From Bryobacteraceae bacterium (GTDB lineage Bacteria > Acidobacteriota > Terriglobia > Bryobacterales > Bryobacteraceae), in assembly GCA_026002875.1 (NCBI GenBank), contig BPGE01000001.1, positions 4,588,001 to 4,652,000 of the forward strand: a stretch of DNA of 64,000 nucleotides, given 5' to 3'. The notes beneath the pieces are model-generated. The model worked only from the letters and a program-made list of their open reading frames with translations, was not told the origin of the DNA and ran no database searches. The position numbers were made by a program, and so were the translations under genes. Each line of letters starts with the position of its first letter. The stretch's first letter is position 1. Positions 1 through 14,235 of this stretch are shown piece by piece.

Positions 1-1744
1 TGAAGCGCGGCTCCCACACCTCCGCGCCGCCGCCCTTCAGGATGTAGGTCAGCCAGGCGCGCGCGCCGCGCAGATTGTCGACATAGAGGTCGCCGTTTTC
101 CCGCAGCGATTCAGCCAGCCGCAACTGCACGCGCGTGCCTGCGGGGCCCTGCACTTTCAGCCGCACCCAGCCCACCATGTTCTGGCCCAGGTCGTAGATG
201 AACACGCCCGGCCGCAGTTCCTTCACCGTCTTCGGCGCCAGCGTCTCGATCACGCGGAGCGGTTCCGCCATCTGGGCGCGAAGCGCGCCTCCCGGCGCTT
301 CCACCAGCTGTGCCGCCTCCCATCTGGAATCGTCGAAGCCCGGCTGCGCCCAGCCCGGCAGCTCCATGCGCGCGTCGTAGACTTCGCCGTCGTATTCGTT
401 GTTGGCGCGGATCGGACCCTCGGTGGTCAGCTTCCAGGTCTCGTCGGTGACGACGATCTCCTTGCGTCCGCCCTCATACTCCAGCTCGATCTGCGCGATC
501 GCTTTCGGGTAGCCGTAGCCGCGCGAAGGAATCGGAACGCGCCGGCGCGGCTGCCAGTAGCGCCCGTTGCCAAGCCACAGCCCTACGGCGTTGCGCCCCG
601 GCTTGAGCATCGCAGTGATGTCGTGCGTGACGTAGAACACGCGCTTCTCGTACTCGGTGAGACCCGGAGAGAGAACGTCGTCGCCCGCCTTCGCGCCGTT
701 CAGGTACAGTTCGCTCAGCCCGAGTCCTGCGACGTACGCCGTGGCTCGCCGCAGCCGCGGCTGCACGTCGAATTCCTTGCGCAGCATGCGCGCCGGCAGC
801 GCCTGCTCTTCACGCAGTCCTACTTCGCCCCAGGGATCCATGCCGTAGGGGCCGAGCGCTTTTGCGGGTTTCCAGCCCTCGTCATCCTTGCGCAACGCCT
901 CCCAGTGGGCGCCGGTGTAAAACATCATCGGCTCGCCGGAAGCGAACTCGATCTTCAACGCTCCCAGCACCCCCGCCTGATCCTCCCGCGTGTTGCGCGC
1001 CACCACCAGCAGCTCATTCTCGCCGGGCTTCAGCCACGGCTCGATGTGCAGCACCATCGGCAGCGTGGGGTTGTTGCCCTTGCCCGCGAACTCGCCATTG
1101 ACCGTGAGCTCGAAACTGTTGTCCGCGCCCAGGACGAAGGTTGCCGTCTTCAGGGGCCGGCCGGCGGGCAACGTGAGCCGCGCGCGGAATCGGCGCGTTT
1201 CCGCAGGCGCCTGTCTGGCCGGGTCGCCTTCGTCGAACCAGATCCACTGCGCTTCCTTCAGCCACTGGAACGGACTATGCGGATCCTTGTAGTACGTCTT
1301 CTCGTCGCGGCCGATCCACTTGCCCTTCCAGTCTTCCGGTTTCAGCAGCCCCATGGACCAGCGCGCGGTTTCACTCCACGAGGAAGGCTGGCCGTCCTGA
1401 TCCCAGACCATCACGCGCCACCACACGGGCTGTCCGGAGACGAGGGGCTTGCCCTGATAGGCGATATGCGTGTTCTGGCTGCTCTCCACCCTGCCGGTGT
1501 CCCAGAGGTCGCCGCGTCCGGACTGCGCCAGCGCAGCCGTGCTGGACACGATGACGCGGTATGCGGTCTGGCGGAGATTCCGGGCGCCTGGCCTGGCTGC
1601 TTCCAGTTTCCAGCTCAGGCGTGGCGCAGTTTCATCGATGCCCAGCGGATCTTTTCGATACTCGGTGCGCAGGCCGGCCGGTTTGAGAGAAGCCGCCTGT
1701 CCGATGGCGGCGCACAGAAGAAGGGCGGGAACGATTCGGGTCAT
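1..1744 (-). CDS. alpha-L-rhamnosidase (GH78), N-terminal part, runs off the window
   Basis: Partial gene: the start is inside the window and the 3' end lies before base 1. An ATG at 1744 is preceded by GAGGAGCG, a good ribosome binding site. The protein opens with a secretion signal (MTRIVPALLLCAAIGQA) and then shows the bacterial rhamnosidase layout. An Ig-like domain carries APRLSWKLEAARPGARNL-type sequence and VWWRVMVWDQDGQPSSWS. A jelly-roll follows with LYLNGAKAGDDVLSPGLTEY, the signature of the rhamnosidase N domain. The visible 581 residues end before the catalytic (alpha/alpha)6 domain. Family knowledge: such enzymes release terminal L-rhamnose from plant polysaccharides and glycosides outside the cytoplasm. 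A secreted GH78 fits the GH2/GH3 genes downstream. The substrate is not visible. Confidence 0.85.
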   Translation of the reverse strand, partial: MTRIVPALLLCAAIGQAASLKPAGLRTEYRKDPLGIDETAPRLSWKLEAARPGARNLRQTAYRVIVSSTAALAQSGRGDLWDTGRVESSQNTHIAYQGKPLVSGQPVWWRVMVWDQDGQPSSWSETARWSMGLLKPEDWKGKWIGRDEKTYYKDPHSPFQWLKEAQWIWFDEGDPARQAPAETRRFRARLTLPAGRPLKTATFVLGADNSFELTVNGEFAGKGNNPTLPMVLHIEPWLKPGENELLVVARNTREDQAGVLGALKIEFASGEPMMFYTGAHWEALRKDDEGWKPAKALGPYGMDPWGEVGLREEQALPARMLRKEFDVQPRLRRATAYVAGLGLSELYLNGAKAGDDVLSPGLTEYEKRVFYVTHDITAMLKPGRNAVGLWLGNGRYWQPRRRVPIPSRGYGYPKAIAQIELEYEGGRKEIVVTDETWKLTTEGPIRANNEYDGEVYDARMELPGWAQPGFDDSRWEAAQLVEAPGGALRAQMAEPLRVIETLAPKTVKELRPGVFIYDLGQNMVGWVRLKVQGPAGTRVQLRLAESLRENGDLYVDNLRGARAWLTYILKGGGAEVWEPRF

Positions 1745-1765
1745 GATACGGCGCTCCTCAATTGG

Positions 1766-1795
1766 AGGCGGCGGCTGCCCATCGCAGCGCCGCCT
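1766..1795. repeat. GC-rich hairpin between tag and the rhamnosidase gene
   Basis: AGGCGGCGGCTGC (1766-1778) pairs with GCAGCGCCGCCT (1784-1795) across a 5-nt loop, with one bulged G. It lies 3' of tag and in the probable 5' leader of the rhamnosidase gene on the minus strand. There is no T-run, so it is not a canonical intrinsic terminator. It may stabilise an mRNA end. Confidence 0.4.
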
Positions 1796-1812
1796 GACGA
1801 CACTGCATCTTA

Positions 1813-2376
1813 TCAACCCCTGCGCAGATCCGCGCGGGCCGCTCCGCGCCGCCAGCAGCCGGGCTCGTGCGCGTCGATGAGGCCCATGGCCTGCATGAAG
1901 GACTCGACTGTGACCGGTCCGACGAAGGTCCAGCCGCGCCGCTTCAGCTCGCGCGCCAGCTCGCGCGGCTCGCGCCCCTCGAAGGACCAGAAAAAACGGT
2001 CGAGCGAGCCCTGCTCGTCCGCCAGTTCGCAGGCGCGCCGCGCGTTATTCAGCACGGAGGCGATCTTGCCGCGGTGGCGGATGATGCCTGGCTCGAGCAT
2101 CACCCGGCTCGCGTCGCGTTCATCCCAGAGCGCCAGCCGGCGGAAATCGAACCCGGCAAACGCCCGGCGGAACGCCTCGCGCTTGCGCAGCACGGTCAGC
2201 CAGCTCAGTCCCGCCTGAAAGCCTTCCAGACAGATCTTTTCGAACAGCCGGATGTCATCGTGCACCGGCACGCCCCATTCCTCGTCGTGGTAAGCGACAT
2301 AGTCGGGAGCGGTTCCGCACCAGGCGCAGCGGGGCCGCCCGTCAGGCCCGGCCAGGATGCGGGGCTTCGTATTCAT
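1813..2376 (-). CDS. tag: DNA-3-methyladenine glycosylase I
   Basis: Base-excision repair enzyme that removes 3-methyladenine from alkylated DNA in the cytoplasm. The 187-residue length matches E. coli Tag. Family blocks are visible in order: RCAWC (16-20), YHDEEWGVP (29-37), EGFQAGLSWLTVLRKRE, GIIRHRGKI and FVGPVTVESFMQAMGL. The four Zn-knot positions known from E. coli Tag are all present: Cys17, His30, His170 and Cys174. The ATG at 2376 starts the family-typical N-terminus. It is divergent from the sigma factor gene, with 65 nt between starts, and has no operon partner. Confidence 0.95.
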   Translation of the reverse strand: MNTKPRILAGPDGRPRCAWCGTAPDYVAYHDEEWGVPVHDDIRLFEKICLEGFQAGLSWLTVLRKREAFRRAFAGFDFRRLALWDERDASRVMLEPGIIRHRGKIASVLNNARRACELADEQGSLDRFFWSFEGREPRELARELKRRGWTFVGPVTVESFMQAMGLIDAHEPGCWRRGAARADLRRG

Positions 2377-2441
2377 GCCGAATTCCAGCTTGCCAGATCC
2401 GCCCCCGCGGGCACGCCCGGAAATCAGGATCCGGACGTCCT

Positions 2442-3044
2442 GTGATAGAACGGATCGGGATGCCGTTTTGCAATGCTCCCTGTCTGGCCGGCGCGCCTGC
2501 TGCCCCCTGCGTTCAGGAAGAGTGCCTGGTGGAGCACGCGCGGCGGGGCGACCGTGAGGCGCGAGAACGGCTTTTCAGCCTGCTGTCGCCCTGGGTTCTG
2601 CACCAGGCGAGGAGGTTCTGCCGGACCGACGGGTCGGCGCAGGATATCGCGCAGGCGGCGCTGGTTTCGGCCCTCGAGCATCTGCCCGATTTGCGCCGCC
2701 CCAGCTGCCTCGGCGCCTGGGTCCGGCGGATCGTGGTCAACACCTGCCGCATGGAAGAACGCAGGCGGGCTGCACGCGCGCAAATCGAGGAGCTGCCCCC
2801 GGACGCGGTCAGTCCGTCCTGCCTGGGGGAAAAGCTTCTGGATGCGCGGCGCCTGCTCTCCCGGGTTGTCCAGTCCGCTCCTTCGTTGCCGCCCCTGCTG
2901 GCGGAGACCTTCCGCCTGCGTGTTCTCGAGGGGCTGACGACAAAGCAGACAGCGGCGCGTCTCGGCGTCAGTCAGGATATCGTCCGGGCGCGGCTTGCCC
3001 GCGCCCGCAGACATCTTCGAAGAAGGAGCGCGAGCGCCGGCTAG
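2442..3044 (+). CDS. ECF-type RNA polymerase sigma-70 factor
   Basis: A 200-residue extracytoplasmic-function sigma factor. Region 2 is recognisable in LSPWVLHQARRFCRTDGSAQ followed by DIAQAALVSALEHL and LGAWVRRIVVNTCR. Region 4 is at the C-terminus: FRLRVLEGLTTKQTAARLGV followed by an HTH recognition helix and an Arg-rich tail (ARARRHLRRR). It would direct RNA polymerase to a small regulon. No anti-sigma gene lies next to it, so its signal is unknown. The GTG at 2442 is one possible start; ATG 2460 (MPFCNAP) is another, and neither has a strong SD. Its last 4 bases overlap the convergent ccmH-like gene. Confidence 0.85.
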   Translation: MIERIGMPFCNAPCLAGAPAAPCVQEECLVEHARRGDREARERLFSLLSPWVLHQARRFCRTDGSAQDIAQAALVSALEHLPDLRRPSCLGAWVRRIVVNTCRMEERRRAARAQIEELPPDAVSPSCLGEKLLDARRLLSRVVQSAPSLPPLLAETFRLRVLEGLTTKQTAARLGVSQDIVRARLARARRHLRRRSASAG

Positions 3045-3448
3045 GACACTGCCCCCGCGCCGCCGGGCGAGCTTTCCGGCTGCGGCTTCACCATGCGGCG
3101 GATGATCCAGACGACCAGCGCCAGCCCCAGAATGGAAGCCACGATGGGGATCGTATACGCCCAGAGACGCAGCTGGCCTTCCGGCTCCATGAGGATCCGC
3201 GTTCCGTATTTCGCTTTGTAGAAATCCAGAATTTCCCGGTCGCTGCGTCCCTCGTTCACCATTCTGGCGATCTCCGCCCTCATTTCGGCCGCCACCTCGC
3301 TGCGGTGCATGGCCACGCTCTCGCTCCAGCAGCAGGGTGCAATCAGTTTCTCCTGCAATGCGCGGATCCTGCCAGAGCCTTGCCCCCAGGCAATGGCCGC
3401 CGCAAGGAGCGCCGCTGCCACCCAGATGAATTTGGCCTTGTTTCGCAT
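3041..3448 (-). CDS. CcmH/NrfF-type cytochrome c biogenesis protein with a CC motif
   Basis: A 135-residue membrane-anchored protein. The start is ATG 3448 because GGAGGG sits 5 nt upstream; the open frame continues to 3619 but that part looks like random coding. A signal or anchor helix (about residues 7-22) is followed by the CcmH three-helix domain: IRALQEKLIAPCCWSESVAM, EMRAEIARMVNEGRSDREIL and FYKAKYGTRIL. A C-terminal membrane segment follows (YTIPIVASILGLALVVWII). Family knowledge: CcmH reduces apocytochrome c cysteines before haem attachment through an LxCxxC motif. Here the dithiol is two adjacent cysteines (APCCW), so the redox chemistry may differ. No other ccm gene is adjacent. 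Confidence 0.8.
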   Translation of the reverse strand: MRNKAKFIWVAAALLAAAIAWGQGSGRIRALQEKLIAPCCWSESVAMHRSEVAAEMRAEIARMVNEGRSDREILDFYKAKYGTRILMEPEGQLRLWAYTIPIVASILGLALVVWIIRRMVKPQPESSPGGAGAVS

Positions 3449-3660
3449 CGAGCCCTCCCCTTTCCAGATCTCTGAGGAATTGCCGGGCGGCCGCCTCGCC
3501 TTCTGGTTCCGCTCGGTTCCTGCCTTCATTGTAAGGGCAACATCCCGATTCCGCGGGCGGCCGCTCGCGGGATGCGCCCGGTCCAATCGGAACCGGAGCG
3601 TGCTTTCAATCAGATACACTCGGTATTTGGGCCGAAACCGGCCGGCCGGAGGATCCTCAT

Positions 3661-4476
3661 TTGCCCGAAATCCTCAGAGACATCCTGGGCAACGCGCCGC
3701 AATTGACCCTGACGGGTGCGCTCGACATCCTTCTTGTGGCGCTGCTTCTGTACCAGGTGCTGCTGCTGATCCGCGGCCGGCGGGCCATGCATGTGCTCGT
3801 GGGCATCGGGATCGTTCTGGCCGCCTACGGCCTGGCGGTCAGCGCCGGCCTTACCGTGCTCCGGACGATCCTTGAGGGATTGGCCCCGTACACGGCCTTC
3901 GCGCTGATCGTGATGTTCCAGGGCGAAATCCGCCGCATGCTGACCCGGATCGGCGAGCGGAAATGGGCCGGATTCGGCGCCCGCGTCGAATCGCGCGAGG
4001 TGGCGGAGGAGATCGTGCTCGCCGTCAGCCATCTGGCTGCGCACCGTATCGGCGCGCTGATTGTGATCGAAGGAGAAGTCGGGCTGCGCACCTTTATTGA
4101 AAGCGGCGTCCCGATCGACGCGCGGGTGACCCGCGACCTGCTGCTGGCCATCTTTCAGCCTGGCGGCCCGCTCCATGACGGCGCCGCCATCGTCACGGGC
4201 GGACGGCTCGCCGCCGCCGCCTGCTTCCTCCCTCTAACGATGAACCCGGAGCTGTCGCGCGTCTTCGGCACCCGTCACCGCGCGGCGATCGGCGTCAGCG
4301 AGGACTCTGACTGCCTCGCCATTGTCGTCAGCGAGGAGCGCGGCACGATTTCGCTGGCCTCGGCCGGAGAGCTGGAAAATGACATCAGTCCGGAACGCCT
4401 GGCCGAGCGGCTGAGCCATCCGGTGAAAGGCGGCCGCAGACGCACGGCGGCGGCGCGGGAGGGCGCCCGGCCATGA
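3661..4476 (+). CDS. cdaA: diadenylate cyclase CdaA (c-di-AMP synthase)
   Basis: Makes the second messenger c-di-AMP from two ATP. The start is TTG 3661, preceded by GGAGGATCC. At the N-terminus are hydrophobic segments typical of CdaA (ALDILLVALLLYQVLLLI, then VLVGIGIVLAAYGLAVSAG), which place it at the inner membrane. The DAC domain follows, with the diagnostic DGAAIV motif (in GGPLHDGAAIVTGGRL) and the RHR motif (GTRHRAAIGVSE). The length of 271 is typical. It overlaps cdaR by 4 nt and lies two genes upstream of glmM. This is the conserved cdaA-cdaR-glmM order, in which CdaR and GlmM are known to modulate cyclase activity. Confidence 0.95.
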   Translation: MPEILRDILGNAPQLTLTGALDILLVALLLYQVLLLIRGRRAMHVLVGIGIVLAAYGLAVSAGLTVLRTILEGLAPYTAFALIVMFQGEIRRMLTRIGERKWAGFGARVESREVAEEIVLAVSHLAAHRIGALIVIEGEVGLRTFIESGVPIDARVTRDLLLAIFQPGGPLHDGAAIVTGGRLAAAACFLPLTMNPELSRVFGTRHRAAIGVSEDSDCLAIVVSEERGTISLASAGELENDISPERLAERLSHPVKGGRRRTAAAREGARP

Positions 4477-5153
4477 AACGCTTCTTCACCCAGCACCTGG
4501 GCCTGAAGCTCTTCTCGCTCGCCGTGGCCTTTGTCCTGTGGCTGTCCATCAGCGGCTCGCGCGAGCTCACCACCGCCGTCACGGTTCCCGTCCAGTACCG
4601 CAACATCCCCACGCACCTCGAGCTGGGGCCGAACCTCGTGGAAGAAGTGCGCTTGATCGTGCGCGGACCTTCGCCGCTGCTGGCGCGCGTCTCTGATTCG
4701 CCGCCCCCCGTCGTGCTCGATCTGGGGCGCGTCCGGCGCGAGGGCGTCACCACCTTTTCCATCCAGCGCACGAATGTGGATCTTCCGGCGGGCGTCATCC
4801 TGGAGCGCGCCATCCCTTCCCAGATTCAGATCCGCACGGAGCGGCGCGAAGTGAAAGAGGTGCCCGTCTGGCCCGTGTTTGAAAACGTGCCGGAAGGCTA
4901 TCAGATCGAGTCGTGGACGGTCACGCCGCCGCGGCTGCCCCTGTCCGGTCCGAAGAGCCGCCTGGACAGGATCGAAACCGTCAGGACCGATCCCATCGAT
5001 CTGCACTCGCAGCCGGGCGGCAACGAAGTGCTGACCACAGCGTTCGCCGGAGACCCGCAGGCCCACTTCGTGGCTTCGCCTCAGGTCAGGGTCCGCTATG
5101 TTCTGAGTCCCATTCCTGCTGCGGACCGCTCCGCGGCAAAGGAGAAACGTTGA
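4473..5153 (+). CDS. cdaR: YbbR-domain protein CdaR, cyclase regulator
   Basis: A 226-residue protein with an N-terminal transmembrane segment (LKLFSLAVAFVLWLSISGSR), after which it would face the periplasm. YbbR-like beta domains follow, seen in the repeated VPVQYRNIP and ELGPNLVEEVRLIVRGPSPL type blocks and in EVPVWPVFENVPEGYQIESW. Family knowledge: CdaR binds and regulates CdaA. Both ends overlap neighbouring genes by 4 nt (ATGA with cdaA, TTGA with glmM), so translation is probably coupled through the operon. Confidence 0.9.
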   Translation: MKRFFTQHLGLKLFSLAVAFVLWLSISGSRELTTAVTVPVQYRNIPTHLELGPNLVEEVRLIVRGPSPLLARVSDSPPPVVLDLGRVRREGVTTFSIQRTNVDLPAGVILERAIPSQIQIRTERREVKEVPVWPVFENVPEGYQIESWTVTPPRLPLSGPKSRLDRIETVRTDPIDLHSQPGGNEVLTTAFAGDPQAHFVASPQVRVRYVLSPIPAADRSAAKEKR

Positions 5154-6472
5154 GCGAAAGACGCCTCTTTGGCACGGATGGAATCCGCGGAGTCGCAGGC
5201 GAGCCGCCTCTGGATGCCCGCACTGTCGCCGCCTTCGGCATGGCGCTGGGCGAGTGGGCGCTGCACCATGGCTCCAGAAGCGTGCTTATCGGGATGGACA
5301 CGCGCGAATCGGGCCCCGATCTGGCAGCGCAGGTTGCCGCTGGACTGCGGAAGGCCGGCGCGGAGCCCCTGCTGGCGGGCATTGTCACCACTCCAGCCGT
5401 GTCCTACCTGACCAGGACAGGCCCGTTTTCGGCTGGAGTCATGATCTCCGCTTCGCACAACCCGTACCACGACAACGGCCTGAAAGTGTTCGCGCATGAC
5501 GGCCTCAAGCTGCCGGATGCCGAGGAACTGCGGATCGAGACACGCATCTTTCAGCTTGTGAACGAAGGGGTGGAAGCCGCGCCTGATTCCTCTACTCCCG
5601 CGGATGCCGGGCTCGCAGCCGCGTACCTTGATTTTCTGGCCTCCGCCGCTCCGCACGGTCTGGCCGGGCTCTCTGTCGTGCTGGATTGCGCCAACGGCGC
5701 CGCGTGCCATCTGGCGCCCGCTCTGTTCCGCCGGCTTGGAGCGGGGGTCGTCGAAACCGCCTGCTCGCCGGATGGCCGCAATATCAACGACGGCTGCGGC
5801 GCGCTTCATGTCGAGCCCCTGCGGCGGCGCGTGCTCGAGGAGAAGGCCGATTTCGGGGCCGCATTCGACGGCGACGCCGACCGCTGCATCCTCGTCAGCC
5901 GTTCTGGCCGGGTTCTCAATGGCGACCACATTCTTCTGCTCGCTGGACGCCGCCTGCGTCCGCGCGCCGTCGTGGCCACGGTGATGTCGAACCTCGGCTT
6001 GGAACGGGCTCTGGCGTCCGAGGGCATCGGTCTGATCCGCACCGCCGTCGGAGACCGCTACGTGCTTGAGGAGATGCTCCGCCAGGATCTCCCGCTCGGC
6101 GGCGAGCAGAGCGGCCATGTGATCTTCCGCGATTTCTCCACCGCCGGAGACGGCATGCTGACCGCACTCCGCGCGGCTTCCATCGCCCGCGCCTGCGGGG
6201 CGACGCTCGACGAACTCGTCGAGGACTTCATCGTCTACCCCCAGCGGCTTGTGAACGTCCGCTTCCGCGAGAAAAAGCCCCTCGATCAGCTCCCTGCCGT
6301 GCAGCACGAAATCCGCGAGACCGAGCACGAGTTCGGCCCCGCCGGCCGCGTCCTCGTGCGTTTCTCCGGAACCGAGCCCCTCGCCCGTGTCATGGTTGAA
6401 GGTCCGGACGCCGAGCGTGTCGAGTTCCGCGCCCGCCGCATCGCCGCCGCCATTGAAGCCGCCCTCTCCTGA
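5150..6472 (+). CDS. glmM: phosphoglucosamine mutase
   Basis: Converts glucosamine-6-phosphate to glucosamine-1-phosphate on the way to UDP-GlcNAc for peptidoglycan and LPS. The start is TTG 5150 (LSERRLFGTDGIRG), with AAAGGAG upstream; an open frame extends further upstream but overlaps cdaR. At 440 residues it is close to E. coli GlmM. Landmarks: the catalytic phosphoserine Ser102 in ISASHNP, the metal-binding loop DGDADR at 240-245, GGEQSGH, and the phosphate loop RFSGTEP near the C-terminus. It is the last gene of the c-di-AMP operon and is followed by a terminator-like palindrome. Confidence 0.96.
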   Translation: MSERRLFGTDGIRGVAGEPPLDARTVAAFGMALGEWALHHGSRSVLIGMDTRESGPDLAAQVAAGLRKAGAEPLLAGIVTTPAVSYLTRTGPFSAGVMISASHNPYHDNGLKVFAHDGLKLPDAEELRIETRIFQLVNEGVEAAPDSSTPADAGLAAAYLDFLASAAPHGLAGLSVVLDCANGAACHLAPALFRRLGAGVVETACSPDGRNINDGCGALHVEPLRRRVLEEKADFGAAFDGDADRCILVSRSGRVLNGDHILLLAGRRLRPRAVVATVMSNLGLERALASEGIGLIRTAVGDRYVLEEMLRQDLPLGGEQSGHVIFRDFSTAGDGMLTALRAASIARACGATLDELVEDFIVYPQRLVNVRFREKKPLDQLPAVQHEIRETEHEFGPAGRVLVRFSGTEPLARVMVEGPDAERVEFRARRIAAAIEAALS

Positions 6473-6476
6473 CAAG

Positions 6477-6507
6477 AAAAGGGGACAGGAACACAATTCC
6501 CCTTTTT
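6477..6507. repeat. 30-bp palindromic repeat, copy 1, terminator-like
   Basis: AAAAGGGGACAGGAACACAA followed by TTCCCCTTTTT. A 9-bp stem (AAAAGGGGA/TCCCCTTTT) encloses a 12-nt loop and ends in a T-run. It lies between the convergent ends of glmM and the aminotransferase gene, so it could terminate from both sides. The same 30 bases recur exactly at 62635-62664. A dispersed identical palindrome suggests a REP-like mobile repeat rather than two independent terminators. Confidence 0.75.
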
Positions 6508-6539
6508 CGACCACTGGGGGCGGCGTTTCCGCAGCCGCC

Positions 6540-7841
6540 TCAATAGTTCTTCTGCCGCTCGTGCCGCGCCCGCTGCGCCCTGCCCATCGCCTTCACCCCC
6601 GCAAGCGCCGGGTCCGCCGCCGCCAGCTTCTCGAGTTGCGTGGCCACCTTCTCCATCGCTCGCGCAATGTCCCGCACGTCTTCCTCGTCCCCGATGAAGC
6701 AGAACTGGAACAGCCACACTGCTTCTTCGTACGCCGCACGCTCCGCCACCGGACAGCGGCAGTCCGAATAATCCTTCTGCAGCTGCGCGCAGTTCTCCGG
6801 CGTCGCGTAGAACAGATCGCTGCGGTACACAGCCTCGTAGAAGCGGCCGTCGCACGGCACGCCTTCCGCCTCCACCGCCGCCACGAACAGATCCCGGTGC
6901 GGAGCGGGCCGGCCGGGTTCGGGACGGTACTGCAGGACGTAGCAGTACATCGTGGGCGACGTCATTTGCGGCTGCGCAGGCAGCACGCGGAGGCCCGGCA
7001 GACCCGAGATCAGAGTTTCGAACAGCGCCGCATGCCGCGCCCGCCGCTCGCGCAGTTCCGGCAGCCGCTCCAGCTGCCCGAACAGCATCGCCACCTGCAG
7101 GTCCGTCATGCGGTAATTCAGCCCCAGCAGCCGCTGGCCATACTGGTCTGTCAACGAAGCGCGCCCGCAGTTGATCACCGTCTGCAGCGCTTCGTAGTAC
7201 TCGAGCGAATTGGTCGTCAGCAGCCCGCCCTCTCCTGACGTCATCAGCTTGCTCTCCTGCAGCGAGAACGACCCGATATCGCCGATGGCGCCCGCGCCCC
7301 TGCCCTTCCACGCGCCCCCGTGCGCATGCGCGCAGTCCTCGATCACTTTCAGCCCGCGCTCCCTGGCAAGCTCCATCAGCGCATCCATGTCCGTGAAGCG
7401 CATGGCCAGGTGCACCGGGATCACCGCCTTCGTGCGCGGAGTGATGCAGGCTCGCACGCTCTCCACGTCCATGCAGTACGTGTCCGGATCCACGTCGGCG
7501 AACACGGGCACGCCGCCCATCGCCAGCACCGCCGTCGCCGTGCCGTCCCAGGTGTAGGCGGGCACGATCACTTCGTCTCCGAACCGCACGCCTGCCGCCA
7601 TCAGCGCCGCCGTCAGCGACACGGTTCCGTTCGCCACCGGCAGAGCGTACCGAACGCCGTGCATTTCGGCAAACCGTGCGCACAACTCCTGCGCCAGCGG
7701 CGTCGGGTATGGAAACCCGCCCCAGCGGCGGCTCCGCACCGTGCGCAGGATCCGTTCAAGATCCGCCTCGTCATACTGCGGCCACGGCGCGAACGGCTTG
7801 CGCCGCACAGGCTCGCCGCCGAGAATCGCCAGAGTGCTCAC
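6540..7841 (-). CDS. DegT/DnrJ/EryC1/StrS family PLP aminotransferase
   Basis: A 433-residue sugar aminotransferase-like enzyme. Fold-type I landmarks are visible: ALPVANGTVSLTAALMAAGV (substrate/PLP loop, near 66-85), VIVPAYTWDGTATAVLAMGG, IEDCAHAHGG (PLP ring Asp, about 168-177) and the Schiff-base lysine Lys198 in FSLQESKLMTSGEGG, followed by LGLNYRMTDLQ. Family members transaminate keto-sugar nucleotides for LPS or antibiotics, or act as dehydratases; some Solibacter-type paralogues sit in sugar catabolic regions. The substrate is not visible. The gene is divergent from the GH2 gene, with 122 nt between starts, so a shared control region is possible. Confidence 0.85.
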   Translation of the reverse strand: MSTLAILGGEPVRRKPFAPWPQYDEADLERILRTVRSRRWGGFPYPTPLAQELCARFAEMHGVRYALPVANGTVSLTAALMAAGVRFGDEVIVPAYTWDGTATAVLAMGGVPVFADVDPDTYCMDVESVRACITPRTKAVIPVHLAMRFTDMDALMELARERGLKVIEDCAHAHGGAWKGRGAGAIGDIGSFSLQESKLMTSGEGGLLTTNSLEYYEALQTVINCGRASLTDQYGQRLLGLNYRMTDLQVAMLFGQLERLPELRERRARHAALFETLISGLPGLRVLPAQPQMTSPTMYCYVLQYRPEPGRPAPHRDLFVAAVEAEGVPCDGRFYEAVYRSDLFYATPENCAQLQKDYSDCRCPVAERAAYEEAVWLFQFCFIGDEEDVRDIARAMEKVATQLEKLAAADPALAGVKAMGRAQRARHERQKNY

Positions 7842-7860
7842 GGAAGCTCCTTCTGAATTT

Positions 7861-7901
7861 TGAAAACGGATTTCAGTTTTTTGTTCAGCATACGCTATAG
7901 T
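7861..7901 (+). promoter_or_regulatory. possible operator and -10 element upstream of the GH2 gene
   Basis: TGAAAACGGATTTCA (7861-7875) is an imperfect palindrome with one mismatched pair and a single central base, similar in style to LacI-family operators. It is nested in a larger CTGAA...TTCAG inverted repeat (7853-7876). TATAGT at 7896-7901 is a plausible -10 for the plus strand; no convincing -35 is seen. The LacI regulator encoded at 13237-14235 is a candidate ligand. Confidence 0.35.
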
Positions 7902-7963
7902 GTTCAGGAAGGCAAACCAACCCGCCCACGCCGGCGCGCCGCCGGCCGCGATCTGGAGAAATC

Positions 7964-10900
7964 ATGCGAAATCTCGTCCTCGTCCCTGTCGCCCTCTGCG
8001 CCGCTTCCGCCGCGCAGTGGAGCGTGCGCGTGGAGGAACCCACCGGGCTGTACCGCCGCACGGCGGAAGTCGCAGCGCTGCCGCTCGGGCGCTTCGCTCC
8101 GCATACGTCCGGCTTCGCCGTGATCGATCCGCAGGGCAAGGAAGTCCCCCATCAGGTCTCCGCGGGCGAGCTGCTCTTCCCCGTTTCGGTCATGCCCGGC
8201 GAGTTGCCCGAATACACCGTGACCTGCTGCAGAACGGAGGCGCCGCGGTTCGCGAGTCCCATCGTCGCGCGCCGGCTCGGTCTGCACCGGCTTGAATTCG
8301 GCAACGATCAGTTCCGCGCCGTGATCGATACGCGCGCCGGCTCGATCGTGGAAGCCTACACTCTGCGCGCCGGGGAAAACCGCCGCCTGAATCTCGTCGA
8401 GCTGACGCCCGAGGACAGGAAATCGCTGCAGGGAGACATCCATGAAGACACTCCGGAAGCAGCCCGCGTGATCCCGCCCCCGGTGCCGGGCGTGGATGGC
8501 CCCAACACGGGCTGGACTTCGCTGGGGGGCTCGGGCGGATTCACGAATGCCGAAATTCTCGAATCCGGTCCTCTGCGCGGGCGCCTGCGCCTCACCCGGC
8601 AGGGCGAGTCGTGGGAAATCGTCTGGAACGCTGGAGCGGCCTGGTTCCGCTGGAAGGCGGCCAAAGGCTTCCGGTTCGCCGCCGTGTCTGCGGCTCCGTA
8701 TGTTCCTTTCGACCGCTGCGCCGATGGCAGCGAGTACCGCTGGCCCACCGGTCCGGGCGGCGGCGAGCCGCCCTTCAGCAACGTCGGCCCGCGCAACTGG
8801 AAAAAGCTGCCCGGCGGGCACATGGCCTACTATCAGCGGGCGGAAGATTACGGTGCGCTCGGCATCGTGGCGCTCGACCCGGATCTGGAATGGCGCGGCG
8901 CCTGTTCCCGCAGATTTGTTGCCGAGAAAGCGGCGGGATCAACGGAAATCGCCGTGACATTTCCCGCGTGGAAAGGCGGGGAAACCATTCTCGAAGCGCG
9001 CCGTGAATTCCGCGTCCTGACGCAACCCGCGCTCGTCTCCGTTTCGCCCATGAAGGACGCTGTGCCGGCGGCCAGGGAGCCCGCATCCGTCGAACCGGCC
9101 GCGGAACTGCGCGCGAGCCCCGCCACGCCATTCGCGCCCGTCATTCTGCCCCTCGATGGCGAGTGGGAGCTCATGTGGGCGGAGAAAGGCCAGGGTCCGC
9201 CGCGCGAGGGCTGGCGCCGCGTGCGCGTGCCCGGAACCGCCCACGTGCAGTGGCTCGAATCCTCGCAGATCTTCACGCGCGCCGCGGAATGGATCAGCTC
9301 GAAGGAGTGGTGGTACCGCCGGCAGTTTGAAACGCCGCGCGCATTCGACGGAAAGCGCGTCTTTCTGCAGTTCGACGCCACCGATTACTACGCCGATGTC
9401 TACGTCAATGGTGCATGGATCGCGCGCCATGAAGGCTACATCGACCCCTGGGAGGCCGAAATTCCCCCGCATGCGCTCCGCGATGGGCGCAATGAACTCC
9501 TTGTGCGCGTCTGGACGCCAGTGCACTACTACTGGAAGCACCGTCCGTACACCGTGAAAGGTTCCTACGGCGCCGTGGATCAGAAGCCGGACGACATCAC
9601 GGCTCTGGGCATCACCCGCTCCGTGCGGCTGCGCGCGTACGAAGAAGCCCGCATCACGGACATCGCTGTGGACACGCGGCTCACGGATGACGGAGCTTTA
9701 GTCGAAGTGGAGCTCGGCGCGGAATCCGCCGGACCGGGATTGCAATGGGAGCTGACGCTCTCTCCGGCCAACTTCCAGGGACCCGCGCCCATTCAGGTCC
9801 GCATTCCCTGGTCGACCCGCGCCGCCATCCCCGTGAAGGAGCCTCGCCTGTGGTGGACGTGGGACACGGGCACGCCCCACCTGTACCGGCTCGATGTCCG
9901 CCTCCTTGATGAAAGCGGCCGCGCCATCGACGGCCGCAGCCTCCGCATCGGCATCCGGGAAATCGAAAAAATCGGCTGGCATTTTTATCTGAACCGGAAA
10001 AAACTCTTCATCCGCGGAACGAATTATTACTACCACCTGTTCATGTCCGAAATGGACCGCCGCAAGTACGAGCGCGACATGGAGCTGATGCTCGGCATGA
10101 ACGTCAATATGATCCGGGTCCACTGCCACTTCTCCAACCCGGAGTTTTACGACCTCGCGGACGAGCGCGGCGTTCTGATCTGGCAGGACTTTCTCGAAGC
10201 CTGGTACCCGCACGACCGCGGTTTCTCCCTGCATGCCTCCCGGCTGTACGGCAACCACATCCGCTATGTCCGCAACCGCCCGAGCATCGCCCTCTGGGCG
10301 GCCAGCGACGAGGAGGACTTCGAGAATTACCGCGATCTCACAAAGCATCTTGCCGCGCAACCGTTCTTCCTTGATCCGCAGCGCAGGCCCGTCGTGCGCT
10401 CCACTGGCCGTTTCGGCGACAGCCACGTCTACTACGGCTGGTACGGCGGCAGCATCTGGCAGTACGCTTCGCTCGAAGAAGACTTTGTCTCCGAACTCGG
10501 CGCCACAGCGCTGCCGAACTACGAAACACTGAAAACCTTTATGGACGGCAGGTGGCCCTTCACGCAGTACCGCGACGAGTGGGAATGGCGCCGCCTGCAG
10601 GTCCCCGAAGCCCTGCGCGCGTGGGGTGATCCTGCAGGGACAACGATGGAGGAGTTCATTCCGCGCACGCAGGCGTACGTTTCCCGCCTCTTCCAGCTCG
10701 CCATTGAGCGCATGCGCCGCCGCAAAGCGGACGGCGCGGGCGGCATCCTCCACTTCCACGCCATCGACATCTGGCCTTCCGTGACGATGGCCGCGATCGA
10801 CTTCGAGCGCCGCCCTACAAAGGTCTACGACACAGTGCGCCGCAGCTTCGCGCCCGTAGCGGCGCTGTTCGAATACGACCGCGACCGCTGGCTCGCGGGC

Positions 10901-11173
10901 GAAACGTTCCGCTGCACGCTGTGGGCGGCGAACGATCTCTGGAAAGCGCTTCCCGGATTGAGCGTGAACTGGAAAATCGCCGGCCCCGGCGGCCGGACCG
11001 CGGCGGAAGGCGCCTTTTCTGTCTCTCTGGGAGAAGACGACGTGAAACGCGCGGGCGTGATTGAATGGCGTCCCTCTGCCCCTGGGCCGCACAGGCTGAT
11101 CGCCTGGATCTCCAGTCCGGACGGGCGTCAAATCTCGGAAAACATTTACGAATTCGAGGTGGTCGCGCAGTGA
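7964..11173 (+). CDS. secreted glycoside hydrolase family 2 enzyme with an extra N-terminal beta domain
   Basis: A 1069-residue exported enzyme; GGAGAAATC precedes ATG 7964 and MRNLVLVPVALCAASA is the signal peptide. Residues about 20-370 form an unusual beta-rich region: FAVIDPQGKEVPHQVSAGEL resembles the RIFT-barrel start of PcRGLX/DUF4861-type proteins, then LHRLEFGNDQFRAVIDTRAG. From about 390 the GH2 modules follow: sugar-binding jelly roll (PLDGEWELMW, VFLQFDATDYYADVYVNG), Ig-like domain, then a TIM barrel (LFIRGTNYYYHLF, MIRVHCHFSNPEFYDLADE). The expected acid/base glutamate is probably E783 in LWAASDEED and the nucleophile E844 in VSELGATALPN. This TIM barrel is most like exo-glucosaminidase or mannosidase GH2 members. 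It overlaps the next gene by 4 nt (GTGA). Confidence 0.8.
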   Translation: MRNLVLVPVALCAASAAQWSVRVEEPTGLYRRTAEVAALPLGRFAPHTSGFAVIDPQGKEVPHQVSAGELLFPVSVMPGELPEYTVTCCRTEAPRFASPIVARRLGLHRLEFGNDQFRAVIDTRAGSIVEAYTLRAGENRRLNLVELTPEDRKSLQGDIHEDTPEAARVIPPPVPGVDGPNTGWTSLGGSGGFTNAEILESGPLRGRLRLTRQGESWEIVWNAGAAWFRWKAAKGFRFAAVSAAPYVPFDRCADGSEYRWPTGPGGGEPPFSNVGPRNWKKLPGGHMAYYQRAEDYGALGIVALDPDLEWRGACSRRFVAEKAAGSTEIAVTFPAWKGGETILEARREFRVLTQPALVSVSPMKDAVPAAREPASVEPAAELRASPATPFAPVILPLDGEWELMWAEKGQGPPREGWRRVRVPGTAHVQWLESSQIFTRAAEWISSKEWWYRRQFETPRAFDGKRVFLQFDATDYYADVYVNGAWIARHEGYIDPWEAEIPPHALRDGRNELLVRVWTPVHYYWKHRPYTVKGSYGAVDQKPDDITALGITRSVRLRAYEEARITDIAVDTRLTDDGALVEVELGAESAGPGLQWELTLSPANFQGPAPIQVRIPWSTRAAIPVKEPRLWWTWDTGTPHLYRLDVRLLDESGRAIDGRSLRIGIREIEKIGWHFYLNRKKLFIRGTNYYYHLFMSEMDRRKYERDMELMLGMNVNMIRVHCHFSNPEFYDLADERGVLIWQDFLEAWYPHDRGFSLHASRLYGNHIRYVRNRPSIALWAASDEEDFENYRDLTKHLAAQPFFLDPQRRPVVRSTGRFGDSHVYYGWYGGSIWQYASLEEDFVSELGATALPNYETLKTFMDGRWPFTQYRDEWEWRRLQVPEALRAWGDPAGTTMEEFIPRTQAYVSRLFQLAIERMRRRKADGAGGILHFHAIDIWPSVTMAAIDFERRPTKVYDTVRRSFAPVAALFEYDRDRWLAGETFRCTLWAANDLWKALPGLSVNWKIAGPGGRTAAEGAFSVSLGEDDVKRAGVIEWRPSAPGPHRLIAWISSPDGRQISENIYEFEVVAQ

Positions 11174-13230
11174 AATCCCTCTATTTTCTGCTGGCGCTTG
11201 CGCCCGCGCTTCCGGCTCAGCCCCTGCGTGTGGGAACGTTTCATGCTGAGATCCGCACGGAGTTCTCCACGGGGCACGGACTTCCGTCCAGCGATGTCCA
11301 GCGCGTCTGGATCGGAGCAGACGGAGGTATTCACGCTCTGACAGCTGCTGGCGCGGCCCGCTTTGACGGCGCCCGCTGGGTTCCTTCGAGCGCCGTGCCA
11401 CCCCCGTCCCGCACGGTCTCCGGTCCCGGAGGCATGATGGCCGAGGCCCGTCCCGGCGGCCTGTTTGTGAAACAGCGCGGAAAGAACTGGGAAAGGCTCT
11501 TCCCTTCTGACGGCGCCCGCAGCTGGGCCGTCGACGACGTGCGCGGCGTTGCCTTCGATGCGCGCGGGCGTCTCTGGTTCTGCTCCCCCCAGGGCGCGGG
11601 CGTCCGCGAGAGCGGCCGCTGGACTCTGTATACAGGCGCCGAAGGGCTGCCATATGACGACTTCACCTCGATCGCCGCCGGCGGCGACGGTTCCGTGTGG
11701 TTCGGCACGCGCATCGGCGCGATCCGCTTTGACGGACAGCACTGGGCCTACAGGCAGGGCCGCCGCTGGCTTCCGCATGACGAAGTGCGCTCCATTGCCG
11801 TGGAGCAGGATGGCACGGCCTGGATCGCCACTGCTGGCGGCATTTCCCGCATCGCGCGCAAGCCGATGACGCTGGCCGAAAAAGCGCGCTTCTTCGAAGA
11901 GGAGATCGACCGCCGCCACCGGCGCACCCCTTATGAGTTCGTCCACCCCGTGCACGTCGCTGCGCCTGGCGACGCCTCCCGGTGGACGCAGACCGACAGC
12001 GACAACGACGGACTGTGGACCTCCATGTACGGAGCGGGCGAATGCTTTGCTTACGCAGCGACAGGCGACGAAGACGCCCGCCGCCGCGCGCGGAAAGCCT
12101 TCGAGGCGCTCCGCTTCCTGTCGCTGGTGACTCAGGGCGGCTCGCACCCCGCGCCGAAGGGGTTCGTCGCCCGTTCCATCCTGCCCGTCTCCGGTCCCGA
12201 TCCCAACCTGCGCGATTCTCCTGACCGCGACCGGAAACGCCAGCAGACAGACCGGCTCTGGAAAATCATCACGCCCCGCTGGCCCGTCAGCGCCGACGGC
12301 AAATGGTATTGGAAAACGGACACGAGCTCCGACGAACTGGACGGGCATTTCTTCTTCTACGCAGCCTATTTCGACCACGTCGCCCGCACGGCGGAAGAAA
12401 AGCGCGAGGTTCGCGAACACGTCGCCGCCATCGCGGATCATCTGCTCGTTCACAACTACGCTCTGGTCGATCACGACGGAAGGCCCACCCGCTGGGCCGT
12501 TTTCGGACCCGACGAGCTGAATCACAACCGCGACTGGTGGCAGGAGCGGGGCCTCAACTCGCTCAGCATCCTCTCGTATCTGCGCACGGCCCATCACATC
12601 ACCGGCGATCCCCGGTATGACCGCGCCGCCCGCGCCCTCGTGGAGCGCCACGGCTACGGAATGAACGCCATGATCGTCAAGTCCCACCAGGGGCCAGGCG
12701 GCGGCAATCAGAGCGACGACGAGATGATTTTCATGAATTATTACAACCTTATCCGCTACGAAACAGACCCCGATTTACGGATGAAGTATCTGCTCGGCTT
12801 CCGCCATCATTTCGAGAACGAAGTGCCCGAACGGAATCCCCTGTTCAACTTCCTCTACGCAGCTGTCGCCCGCGGGCAGAAGTTCGAGGACACGTTCGGC
12901 CCGGTCGATCTCAGTCCTCCGCCGGGCTGGCTGGAGGATGCCGCCGACACTCTCGTCCGCATCCCTCTGGACCGCTTCGACTGGGCGCACCGCAACAGCC
13001 ACCGCAAGGACATCTTGCTGCTGCCGCGTTTCATGCGCGAGAACCGGCAGGACCTGTACGGCCGCCGCGTCGATGGCAAGGTCTTGCCCGCCGACGAGCG
13101 CTACTTCGCCCATTGGAACCACGATCCCTGGCGCCTGGACACTGGCGGCGCGGGTACGGAGCTGGCGGAGGGCGCCGTGTTCCTGCTGCCCTATTACCTG
13201 GGCCTTTACCACGGCTTTCTGAAAGACTGA
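11170..13230 (+). CDS. secreted protein: propeller repeats plus helical toroid, function unknown
   Basis: A 686-residue protein starting at GTG 11170, which overlaps the GH2 stop codon, so translation is coupled. It has a signal peptide (VKSLYFLLALAPALPAQ). Residues about 25-235 carry at least three two-component-regulator-propeller type repeats: GLPSSDVQRVWIGADGGIHA, GLPYDDFTSIAAGGDGSVWF and DEVRSIAVEQDGTAWIATAG. From about 240 the sequence is helical and rich in aromatic and acidic residues: TQTDSDNDGLWTSMYGAGE, KTDTSSDELDGHFFFYAAYF and GPDELNHNRDWWQERGLNSL. This is the style of (alpha/alpha)6 toroid hydrolases or lyases. No family was firmly recognised and no kinase or DNA-binding domain is present. 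Pairing with the GH2 gene suggests work on the same polysaccharide. Confidence 0.7.
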   Translation: MKSLYFLLALAPALPAQPLRVGTFHAEIRTEFSTGHGLPSSDVQRVWIGADGGIHALTAAGAARFDGARWVPSSAVPPPSRTVSGPGGMMAEARPGGLFVKQRGKNWERLFPSDGARSWAVDDVRGVAFDARGRLWFCSPQGAGVRESGRWTLYTGAEGLPYDDFTSIAAGGDGSVWFGTRIGAIRFDGQHWAYRQGRRWLPHDEVRSIAVEQDGTAWIATAGGISRIARKPMTLAEKARFFEEEIDRRHRRTPYEFVHPVHVAAPGDASRWTQTDSDNDGLWTSMYGAGECFAYAATGDEDARRRARKAFEALRFLSLVTQGGSHPAPKGFVARSILPVSGPDPNLRDSPDRDRKRQQTDRLWKIITPRWPVSADGKWYWKTDTSSDELDGHFFFYAAYFDHVARTAEEKREVREHVAAIADHLLVHNYALVDHDGRPTRWAVFGPDELNHNRDWWQERGLNSLSILSYLRTAHHITGDPRYDRAARALVERHGYGMNAMIVKSHQGPGGGNQSDDEMIFMNYYNLIRYETDPDLRMKYLLGFRHHFENEVPERNPLFNFLYAAVARGQKFEDTFGPVDLSPPPGWLEDAADTLVRIPLDRFDWAHRNSHRKDILLLPRFMRENRQDLYGRRVDGKVLPADERYFAHWNHDPWRLDTGGAGTELAEGAVFLLPYYLGLYHGFLKD

Positions 13231-13236
13231 CCCTGC

Positions 13237-14235
13237 TCAACGCTTGGTCTTCGCCGTAGACGCGCGCAACACCACTTCCGGCTCGATGACGATCTCCTGC
13301 CCGGAGACGTTCGGCATCTCCTTATCGGGAATCAGCGCGGCGAACGCCAGCCGTCCGATCTCGTCCCGGGGAATGTGAACCGTCGTCAGCGGCGGCTCGC
13401 AGAATTCCGCCAGACGGATATTGTCGAAGCCCGTCACGGAAACATCCTCCGGCACGCGCAGCCCCTTCTCCCGCAGAGCCCGGAGCACGCCCACCGCCAT
13501 GATGTCGTTCACGCAGATGAACGCCGTTGGCGCGAACCCGCCGGCCAGAATCCGCAACGCCGCCATCCTTCCGCCTTCGAATCCATCCCGGTCCGCCTCC
13601 GTGCGCCACTCCACCGCGGGAGCGAATTTCTTCACGCTCGCCAGAAAGGCCGTTTCGCGCTCGCTCGTCGGTCCCAGCGTCGAGTGGTGGCCCACGAACG
13701 CGAACCGGCAATGCCCGAGATCATGCAGATATTCCACCAGCCGCTCGATGCCGCGCCGGTAATTCACGCGGATGTTGGTCATCCGCTCCTGCGGTTTGCC
13801 CACGTCGTAGAACACGCACGGCGTTTTGGAAGCCTGCAGTTCCTTCATCAGGGCGGGATCCATCTCCGACACCACCACCGCCAGCCCCGCCACGCGGCGC
13901 CCGATCATCAGCCGCACGCTCCGCACCAGACGTTCCGGATCGTAGTCCGTGTGCGCCACCACGACTTCGTAGCCGTGCTGCCGCGCCTGCGCCTCCAGCG
14001 ACCGGAACACGTCGAAGAAGAATGGATTCTCCAGATTCGACGCGATCATGCCGATCGTGTTGCTGCGCCCCCCGGCCAGGGTTCGCGCGTGCAGATTGGG
14101 CTGATAATTCAGCTCGGCGATGGCCTTCAGCACTTTTGCCCGCGTCGCCGGGCGCACGATGTCTAGATTGTTCAGAACACGGGAAACCGTTGCAGTGGAA
14201 ACGCCCGCGCGTTTGGCAACTTCCTCAAGACTCAT
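13237..14235 (-). CDS. LacI family transcriptional regulator
   Basis: A 332-residue repressor-type protein. The HTH is at the very N-terminus (MSLEEVAKRAGVSTATVSRV), followed by the hinge region (YQPNLHARTLAGGRSNTIGM) and a periplasmic-binding-protein-like sensor domain. That domain contains VGHHSTLGPTSERETAFLAS, FICVNDIMAVGVLRALREKG and VSVTGFDNIRLAEFCEPPLT, all canonical for the family. It should respond to a sugar or sugar derivative. It is convergent with the enzyme pair at 7964-13230 and divergent from the amidohydrolase at 14292, so it may control both. The effector is unknown. Confidence 0.93.
   Translation of the reverse strand: MSLEEVAKRAGVSTATVSRVLNNLDIVRPATRAKVLKAIAELNYQPNLHARTLAGGRSNTIGMIASNLENPFFFDVFRSLEAQARQHGYEVVVAHTDYDPERLVRSVRLMIGRRVAGLAVVVSEMDPALMKELQASKTPCVFYDVGKPQERMTNIRVNYRRGIERLVEYLHDLGHCRFAFVGHHSTLGPTSERETAFLASVKKFAPAVEWRTEADRDGFEGGRMAALRILAGGFAPTAFICVNDIMAVGVLRALREKGLRVPEDVSVTGFDNIRLAEFCEPPLTTVHIPRDEIGRLAFAALIPDKEMPNVSGQEIVIEPEVVLRASTAKTKR

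Follow-up and report, generated by a model that had tools for sequence, protein, structure and literature searches.

The closest described systems to the protein reported here are toroid enzymes of the (alpha/alpha)6 class and propeller-bearing sensors. The former include the GH76 alpha-1,6-mannanases BT2949 (structure 4v1s) and BT_3782 (4mu9), and GH88 and GH105 enzymes (1vd5 and 4xuv). GH76 enzymes act through a catalytic Asp-Asp dyad, and D136/D137 variants are named among the fold-comparison matches. The 4mu9 entry (BT_3782) carries the title 'putative glycosylhydrolase' only. The latter are the Bacteroides hybrid two-component sensors BT4663 and BT3049, whose solved sensor domains span about 740 residues.

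In this study, we describe a gene that joins a propeller to a toroid, located in a 64,000-nucleotide stretch of a Bryobacteraceae genome (hereafter, the window). Judged from sequence and predicted structure, it represents a real, widely conserved, enzyme-like family that is unclassified relative to Pfam, NCBIfam and PDB sequences. No description of this protein appeared among the literature titles and abstract openings searched.

Domain architecture and distribution of the family

The gene (P0001) extends over 11170..13230 on the + strand, from a GTG start at 11170 to a stop codon at 13228-13230, exactly where the first-pass annotation had placed it, and encodes 686 residues. Residues 1-16 (11170..11217) resemble a signal peptide by eye, with pLDDT below 50 at residues 1-4 and 7-12; from this start, the protein is probably exported. 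A beta-propeller follows at residues about 18-231 (11221..11862), supported by a Reg_prop match (PF07494, E 1.3e-7), by DSSP and by fold matches. Visual inspection of the DSSP string of the AF2 model gives about five blades, and the first propeller strand (24-32) perhaps closes the last blade. Residues 232-686 (11863..13227) make up the toroid domain, which was delimited from AF2 models and fold comparison; in the predicted model, six helical hairpins are arranged in a ring, matching the (alpha/alpha)6 fold class. The whole-protein model is confident except for the first residues (pLDDT 94.1, pTM 0.92), and residues 232-686 were modelled equally well alone (pLDDT 94.6, pTM 0.94). The earlier reading of the protein as a propeller joined to a putative (alpha/alpha)6 domain is borne out by the Reg_prop match and these models. 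Its further statement that a kinase or output domain is absent agrees with the Pfam search of the reading frame, which found neither.

The toroid had no significant match in Pfam, NCBIfam or PDB sequences. Only Reg_prop exceeded the Pfam cut-off in the window protein, and PDB sequence matches with E <1 were solely propellers of Bacteroides two-component sensors. A toroid profile returned no match among PDB sequences at E up to 10, and tblastn with the toroid returned none among plasmid records. PF03663 (GH76), PF07470 (GH88/GH105) and PF07221 (N-acylglucosamine 2-epimerase, AGE) gave no match on the window protein at E up to 1. Among 69 aligned members, Reg_prop was found in 60; PF03663 was absent from the first 25 of their 33 Pfam families, and GH127 (PF07944; weak match, E 0.14, in one member) was the sole toroid family recognised in those 25. 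NCBIfam gave no match near a cut-off for the window protein; PorZ alone appeared, over the propeller (124-247), with 17.3 bits where the cut-off is 260. Across the 69 members, PorZ matched 54 (best E 3.6e-9) and 'F510_1955 glycosylhydrolase' 21 (best E 4.1e-7), in counts that pool the domains. The first-pass annotation had staked its reading on the C-terminal half having no confident match to a described GH or PL family; the profile search for toroid glycosidase and lyase families in Pfam, NCBIfam and PDB sequences yielded none.

Relatives of the window protein were encoded by 268 of 275 pattern-matching stretches of genome contigs, and the best 80 of the 268 were kept as loci. The titles of these 80 name Acidobacteria, Planctomycetota, Hydrogenedentota, Verrucomicrobiota, KSB1, Marinimicrobia and others, and relatives in records titled as other phyla share 50-62% identity. 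When 101 relatives were searched, 67 matched, many through the propeller alone; by reading of the table, 16 matched at E 5.9e-178 or better over most of the toroid or more. The window's genome holds one toroid. Within the phylum, 396 genomes were compared with the toroid profile; 42 gave a match at E up to 1 and, by our own count, 35 at E up to 0.001. One record titled Arcobacter (L031, DYJN01000005.1) encodes a protein 86% identical to that of the window, with the gene placed as in a contig of the window's genus (G003:C33); it is probably mislabelled.

Conservation was assessed in an alignment of 69 sequences including the window's (55 close and 14 diverged members). The other 68 share 34-91% identity with the window toroid, and the alignment marks the reading frame as a conserved gene rather than a chance frame. 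The stretch ahead of the toroid is 231 residues long in the window and ranges from 102 to 386 residues among members (102-183 in 12 of the 14 diverged members, 312 and 319 in the other two); this variable length shows gain or loss of blades. A tree of the 69 toroids clustered by phylum. On its well-supported branches, Hydrogenedentota and Planctomycetota each require at least three changes, and 27 rows fall outside any group; such changes may reflect transfer, paralogy or binning error.

More remote forms of the toroid also occur. Seven whole proteins consist of the toroid only (L141-L144 and L147-L149) and were joined to the family by hhalign at 99.9%. In L151 (823-3117, - strand), an M23 peptidase domain is fused to the toroid, in a protein whose N-terminal segments look hydrophobic by eye. 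In L145 (883-3522, - strand), an Asp-box propeller is inserted into the toroid before the last helix; in its surroundings (context L186), genes starting like DegT and like the BNR_2-like group were seen by eye. Together with a further remote toroid protein, L150, these form the 10 remote rows compared below, for which a fragment (L137) and a gene broken across two frames (L146) were left out and duplicates merged (L138 with L151, L139 with L148, L140 with L149). The Pfam and NCBIfam scan covered eight remote proteins.

Neighbouring genes and the divergent promoter

The gene lies directly downstream of a GH2-type glycosidase gene (7964..11173, + strand; Pfam), whose TGA stop codon (11171-11173) is overlapped by the GTG start in a shared GTGA, and the overlap noted in the first reading is confirmed. 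Ahead of its GH2 domains, the GH2 protein carries some 390 N-terminal residues (7964-9150), in which the only match was a weak one to DUF4861 (E 0.056). Pfam also identified a divergent DegT/DnrJ/EryC1 aminotransferase gene (6540..7841, - strand) and a convergent LacI-family regulator gene (13237..14235, - strand).

The same GH2 type occurs upstream in seven of the 80 loci (L031-L036 and L045), directly adjoining in six, and a LacI gene is present in six of the seven. In L045, one paralogue lies between GH2 and the gene and another before GH2; in L034, one lies before GH2. L045 presents three family members (short, mid and full) around one GH2 gene (936-10055). Within the window's genus, four of five genomes hold a full-length GH2 ortholog (76-100% identity over 1067-1069 residues). 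The fifth, G002, is a single contig with GH2 paralogues at 30% identity or less only and no orthologous copy elsewhere in the genome. There, the promoter repeat and the toroid gene lie about 550 bases apart, with a decayed GH2 remnant (L005, 3545-4140, - strand) between them. The remnant has 29.5% identity to the last 125 GH2 residues (E 1.7e-5 when only this interval was searched). The propeller-toroid gene of G002 is intact at 79% identity and the promoter repeat is kept; hence, the two genes are separable. The two proteins may be made together, as proposed in the first reading. The gene is paired with GH2 in the window and its close relatives, but not in G002.

An inverted repeat, TGAAA-N5-TTTCA (TGAAAACGGATTTCA), was located by promoter comparison in the divergent DegT/GH2 promoter (7861..7875, no strand assigned). 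It is a possible LacI operator and may instead be a promoter element. The form TGAA-N6-TTTCA is exact in seven of the nine promoters compared, four of the nine being from the window's genus; the exceptions are L032 and L045. The window contains a third match, at 4474-4488. The stricter TGAAA-N5-TTTCA occurs at three places in the genome, the other two inside listed reading frames.

The neighbourhood comparison proposed in the first reading gave a divided result: acidobacterial copies lie with GH2 and LacI, and surroundings further afield are mixed. DegT was present in 12 of the 80 loci. A BNR_2-like group occurred in eight of them, with Pfam confirmation for two, and genes for BNR_2, ThuA or a sulfatase lie close by in some relatives. 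Neighbour genes were called by a crude ORF caller of our own with uncertain starts, and 11 near-duplicate or short loci were removed by hand before the Pfam tallies. Of the near genes, 111 of 212 were scanned, with GH2 in four, DegT in four and BNR_2 in three; in the 148 of 234 far genes scanned, all three were absent from the first 25 of 196 families. Proximity to DegT and BNR_2 is a weak guide to substrate, because 41 relatives hold 5-24 DegT and 1-35 BNR_2 matches each.

Conserved residues and proposed function

Three acidic motifs, all on the + strand, sit at helix starts in the AF2 model: DNDG (residues 278-281, 12001..12012; helix 280-298), DTSSDE (384-389, 12319..12336; helix 387-404) and SDDE (515-518, 12712..12723; helix 514-530). 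D278, N279, R335, D384, S386, D388, E389, D516, E518 and Y675 are invariant in all 69 aligned members, as are R252, Y287, S387, H393, T440, W442 and R612. R335 belongs to a GxxAR motif (12172..12174), T440 and W442 to a TRW motif (440-442, 12487..12495), and G668 and Y675 bound a segment of the last helix (13171..13194) with both ends invariant. In the 10 remote rows, R335, S386, G668 and Y675 are kept in all, and W283, T284 and D388 in nine, L145 having H at the position of D388. In the toroid-only rows, D278, D516 and E518 are absent and position 389 is Q, leaving D388 as the sole shared carboxylate of those proposed.

The first-pass annotation had picked two acidic-aromatic motifs as resembling an active site. 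DGLWTSMYGAGE (residues 280-291) belongs to the invariant set: it adjoins D278/N279 and contains G281, T284 and Y287, each invariant in 69/69. NRDWWQERGLN (453-463) has no column conserved at 90% of the 69 and is partly kept, mainly in close members (R460 in 55/55 close and 2/14 diverged members; N463 in 60/69). Besides the first motif, the most conserved sites in the alignment take in DTSSDE, R335, D516/E518 and Y675, and the invariant polar residues fit an enzyme.

In fold comparison with VIA-align, which ranks only the families in its list, the top structural match was GH76 4v1s (Z 17.6, 4.3 A, 308 aligned, 8% identity). AGE/cellobiose epimerases, GH105, GH9 and others scored near 15-16, and terpene cyclases 14.5, on a scale where helical folds often reach about 13-14 through arrangement alone. 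In Foldseek, 1vd5 (GH88/GH105) ranked third (E 1e-3). The predicted fold therefore resembles GH76, AGE and GH105/88 enzymes; none stands out, GH76 coming first by a small margin.

We consider it an even bet that the protein is an exported enzyme acting on carbohydrates, with glycoside hydrolase as the likeliest class, and that its family is undescribed in the libraries tested. The Z range of 15-17.6 to several carbohydrate enzyme kinds (GH76, AGE/cellobiose epimerases, GH105 and GH9) supports this reading, as do the invariant residues at helix starts, the signal-like N-terminus, the GH2 and LacI genes beside acidobacterial copies and the BNR_2, ThuA or sulfatase genes near some relatives. Counting against it are the mixed neighbourhoods further afield, the small-profile comparison below, the absence from the toroid-only rows of every proposed carboxylate but D388, and the use of toroid folds by epimerases, lyases and terpene cyclases as well. 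None of the relatives came with a described activity, ligand or structure, and we infer catalysis and substrate class from the fold and the conserved carboxylates, on which a hydrolase is the best single guess. The propeller would flank or cap the toroid, and the active site would lie on the toroid face built by the N-terminal ends of the inner helices. In the proposed acid/base hydrolysis, D388 (or its neighbours D384/E389) would face D516/E518 or D278/D280 across the cleft, and the invariant R252, R335, K382 and R612 would hold a glycan, probably a charged one.

The first reading had left lyase and hydrolase classes side by side, and the unmatched toroid with its polar invariants agrees with an uncharacterised enzyme of such a kind. 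A polysaccharide lyase or sugar epimerase/isomerase of the same fold, with Arg/His neutralising a uronate carboxylate and Tyr/His as the base, is unlikely, although it is the strongest of the rivals. R335, R252, R612, H393, Y287 and Y675 could supply these roles, and the gap to the top match is no more than about 2.5 for a toroid epimerase (3vw5, Z 15.6) and a lyase (5no8, Z 15.2). Lyase and epimerase mechanisms usually need fewer than six carboxylates. The family has six that are invariant (D278, D384, D388, E389, D516 and E518), which counts against this rival, yet the remote rows keep mainly D388.

Somewhat less probable still is an enzyme whose target is the envelope of the cell itself, for example peptidoglycan, instead of polysaccharides taken as food. 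The M23 fusion of L151 and the mixed neighbourhoods sampled would suit it; however, the fusion is a single case among the 10 remote rows, and GH2 and LacI accompany the acidobacterial copies. That the protein is a non-catalytic glycan-binding or sensory protein, pairing a hybrid-sensor propeller with a dead-enzyme toroid, is improbable. Its propeller does have its best PDB sequence matches among those of sensors, BT3049 and BT4663 included. Against this, residues of catalytic type are invariant in 69/69, even where toroid identity falls to 34%, and Pfam found no signalling output domain.

R199 of the propeller (11764..11766, + strand), between strands 192-195 and 208-211, is kept in 53 of 55 close and all 14 diverged members. 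We tentatively suggest, as a somewhat doubtful extension, a superfamily of carbohydrate-active enzymes absent from the libraries tested. Judged by record titles, it would span five phyla or more; its toroids would be joined to an N-terminal Reg_prop propeller or, in L145, to an Asp-box propeller inserted ahead of the last helix, and R199 would contribute to the active site.

Comparison with known toroid enzymes and sensors

Despite strong conservation of the toroid (50-62% identity under other-phylum titles), nothing in the Pfam, NCBIfam and PDB sequences searched covers it, which makes it a promising candidate for a new family of enzymes. Where genes of this kind carry any annotation, it probably follows the propeller and names them two-component regulators. 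A domain name would mend such annotation and would give a concrete target for finding a new glycan-active enzyme.

The Bacteroides sensors BT4663 and BT3049 have Reg_prop propeller repeats in common with the window protein, which differs in having one propeller of about 210 residues, no kinase and a toroid. The GH88/GH105 enzymes are alike in fold (Z 15.2 for 4xuv) but lack a PF07470 match to the window toroid and reached 0.5% in hhalign with the family profile. AGE reached 0.9% and an unrelated sulfatase 0.9%, in a comparison made insensitive by GH76, GH88 and AGE profiles of 3, 6 and 2 sequences. It is weak evidence, because AGE was also missed by GH76 (0.9%) and GH88 (0.6%) in the controls, in which GH76-GH88 gave 69.6%. 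The GH76 mannanases share the fold over the whole domain (Z 16.7 for 4mu9), but differ from the window toroid in sequence, with 8-9% identity, no PF03663 match and 1.3% in the same small-profile comparison (181 columns, E 0.039). D388-E389 is a candidate counterpart of the GH76 Asp-Asp dyad.
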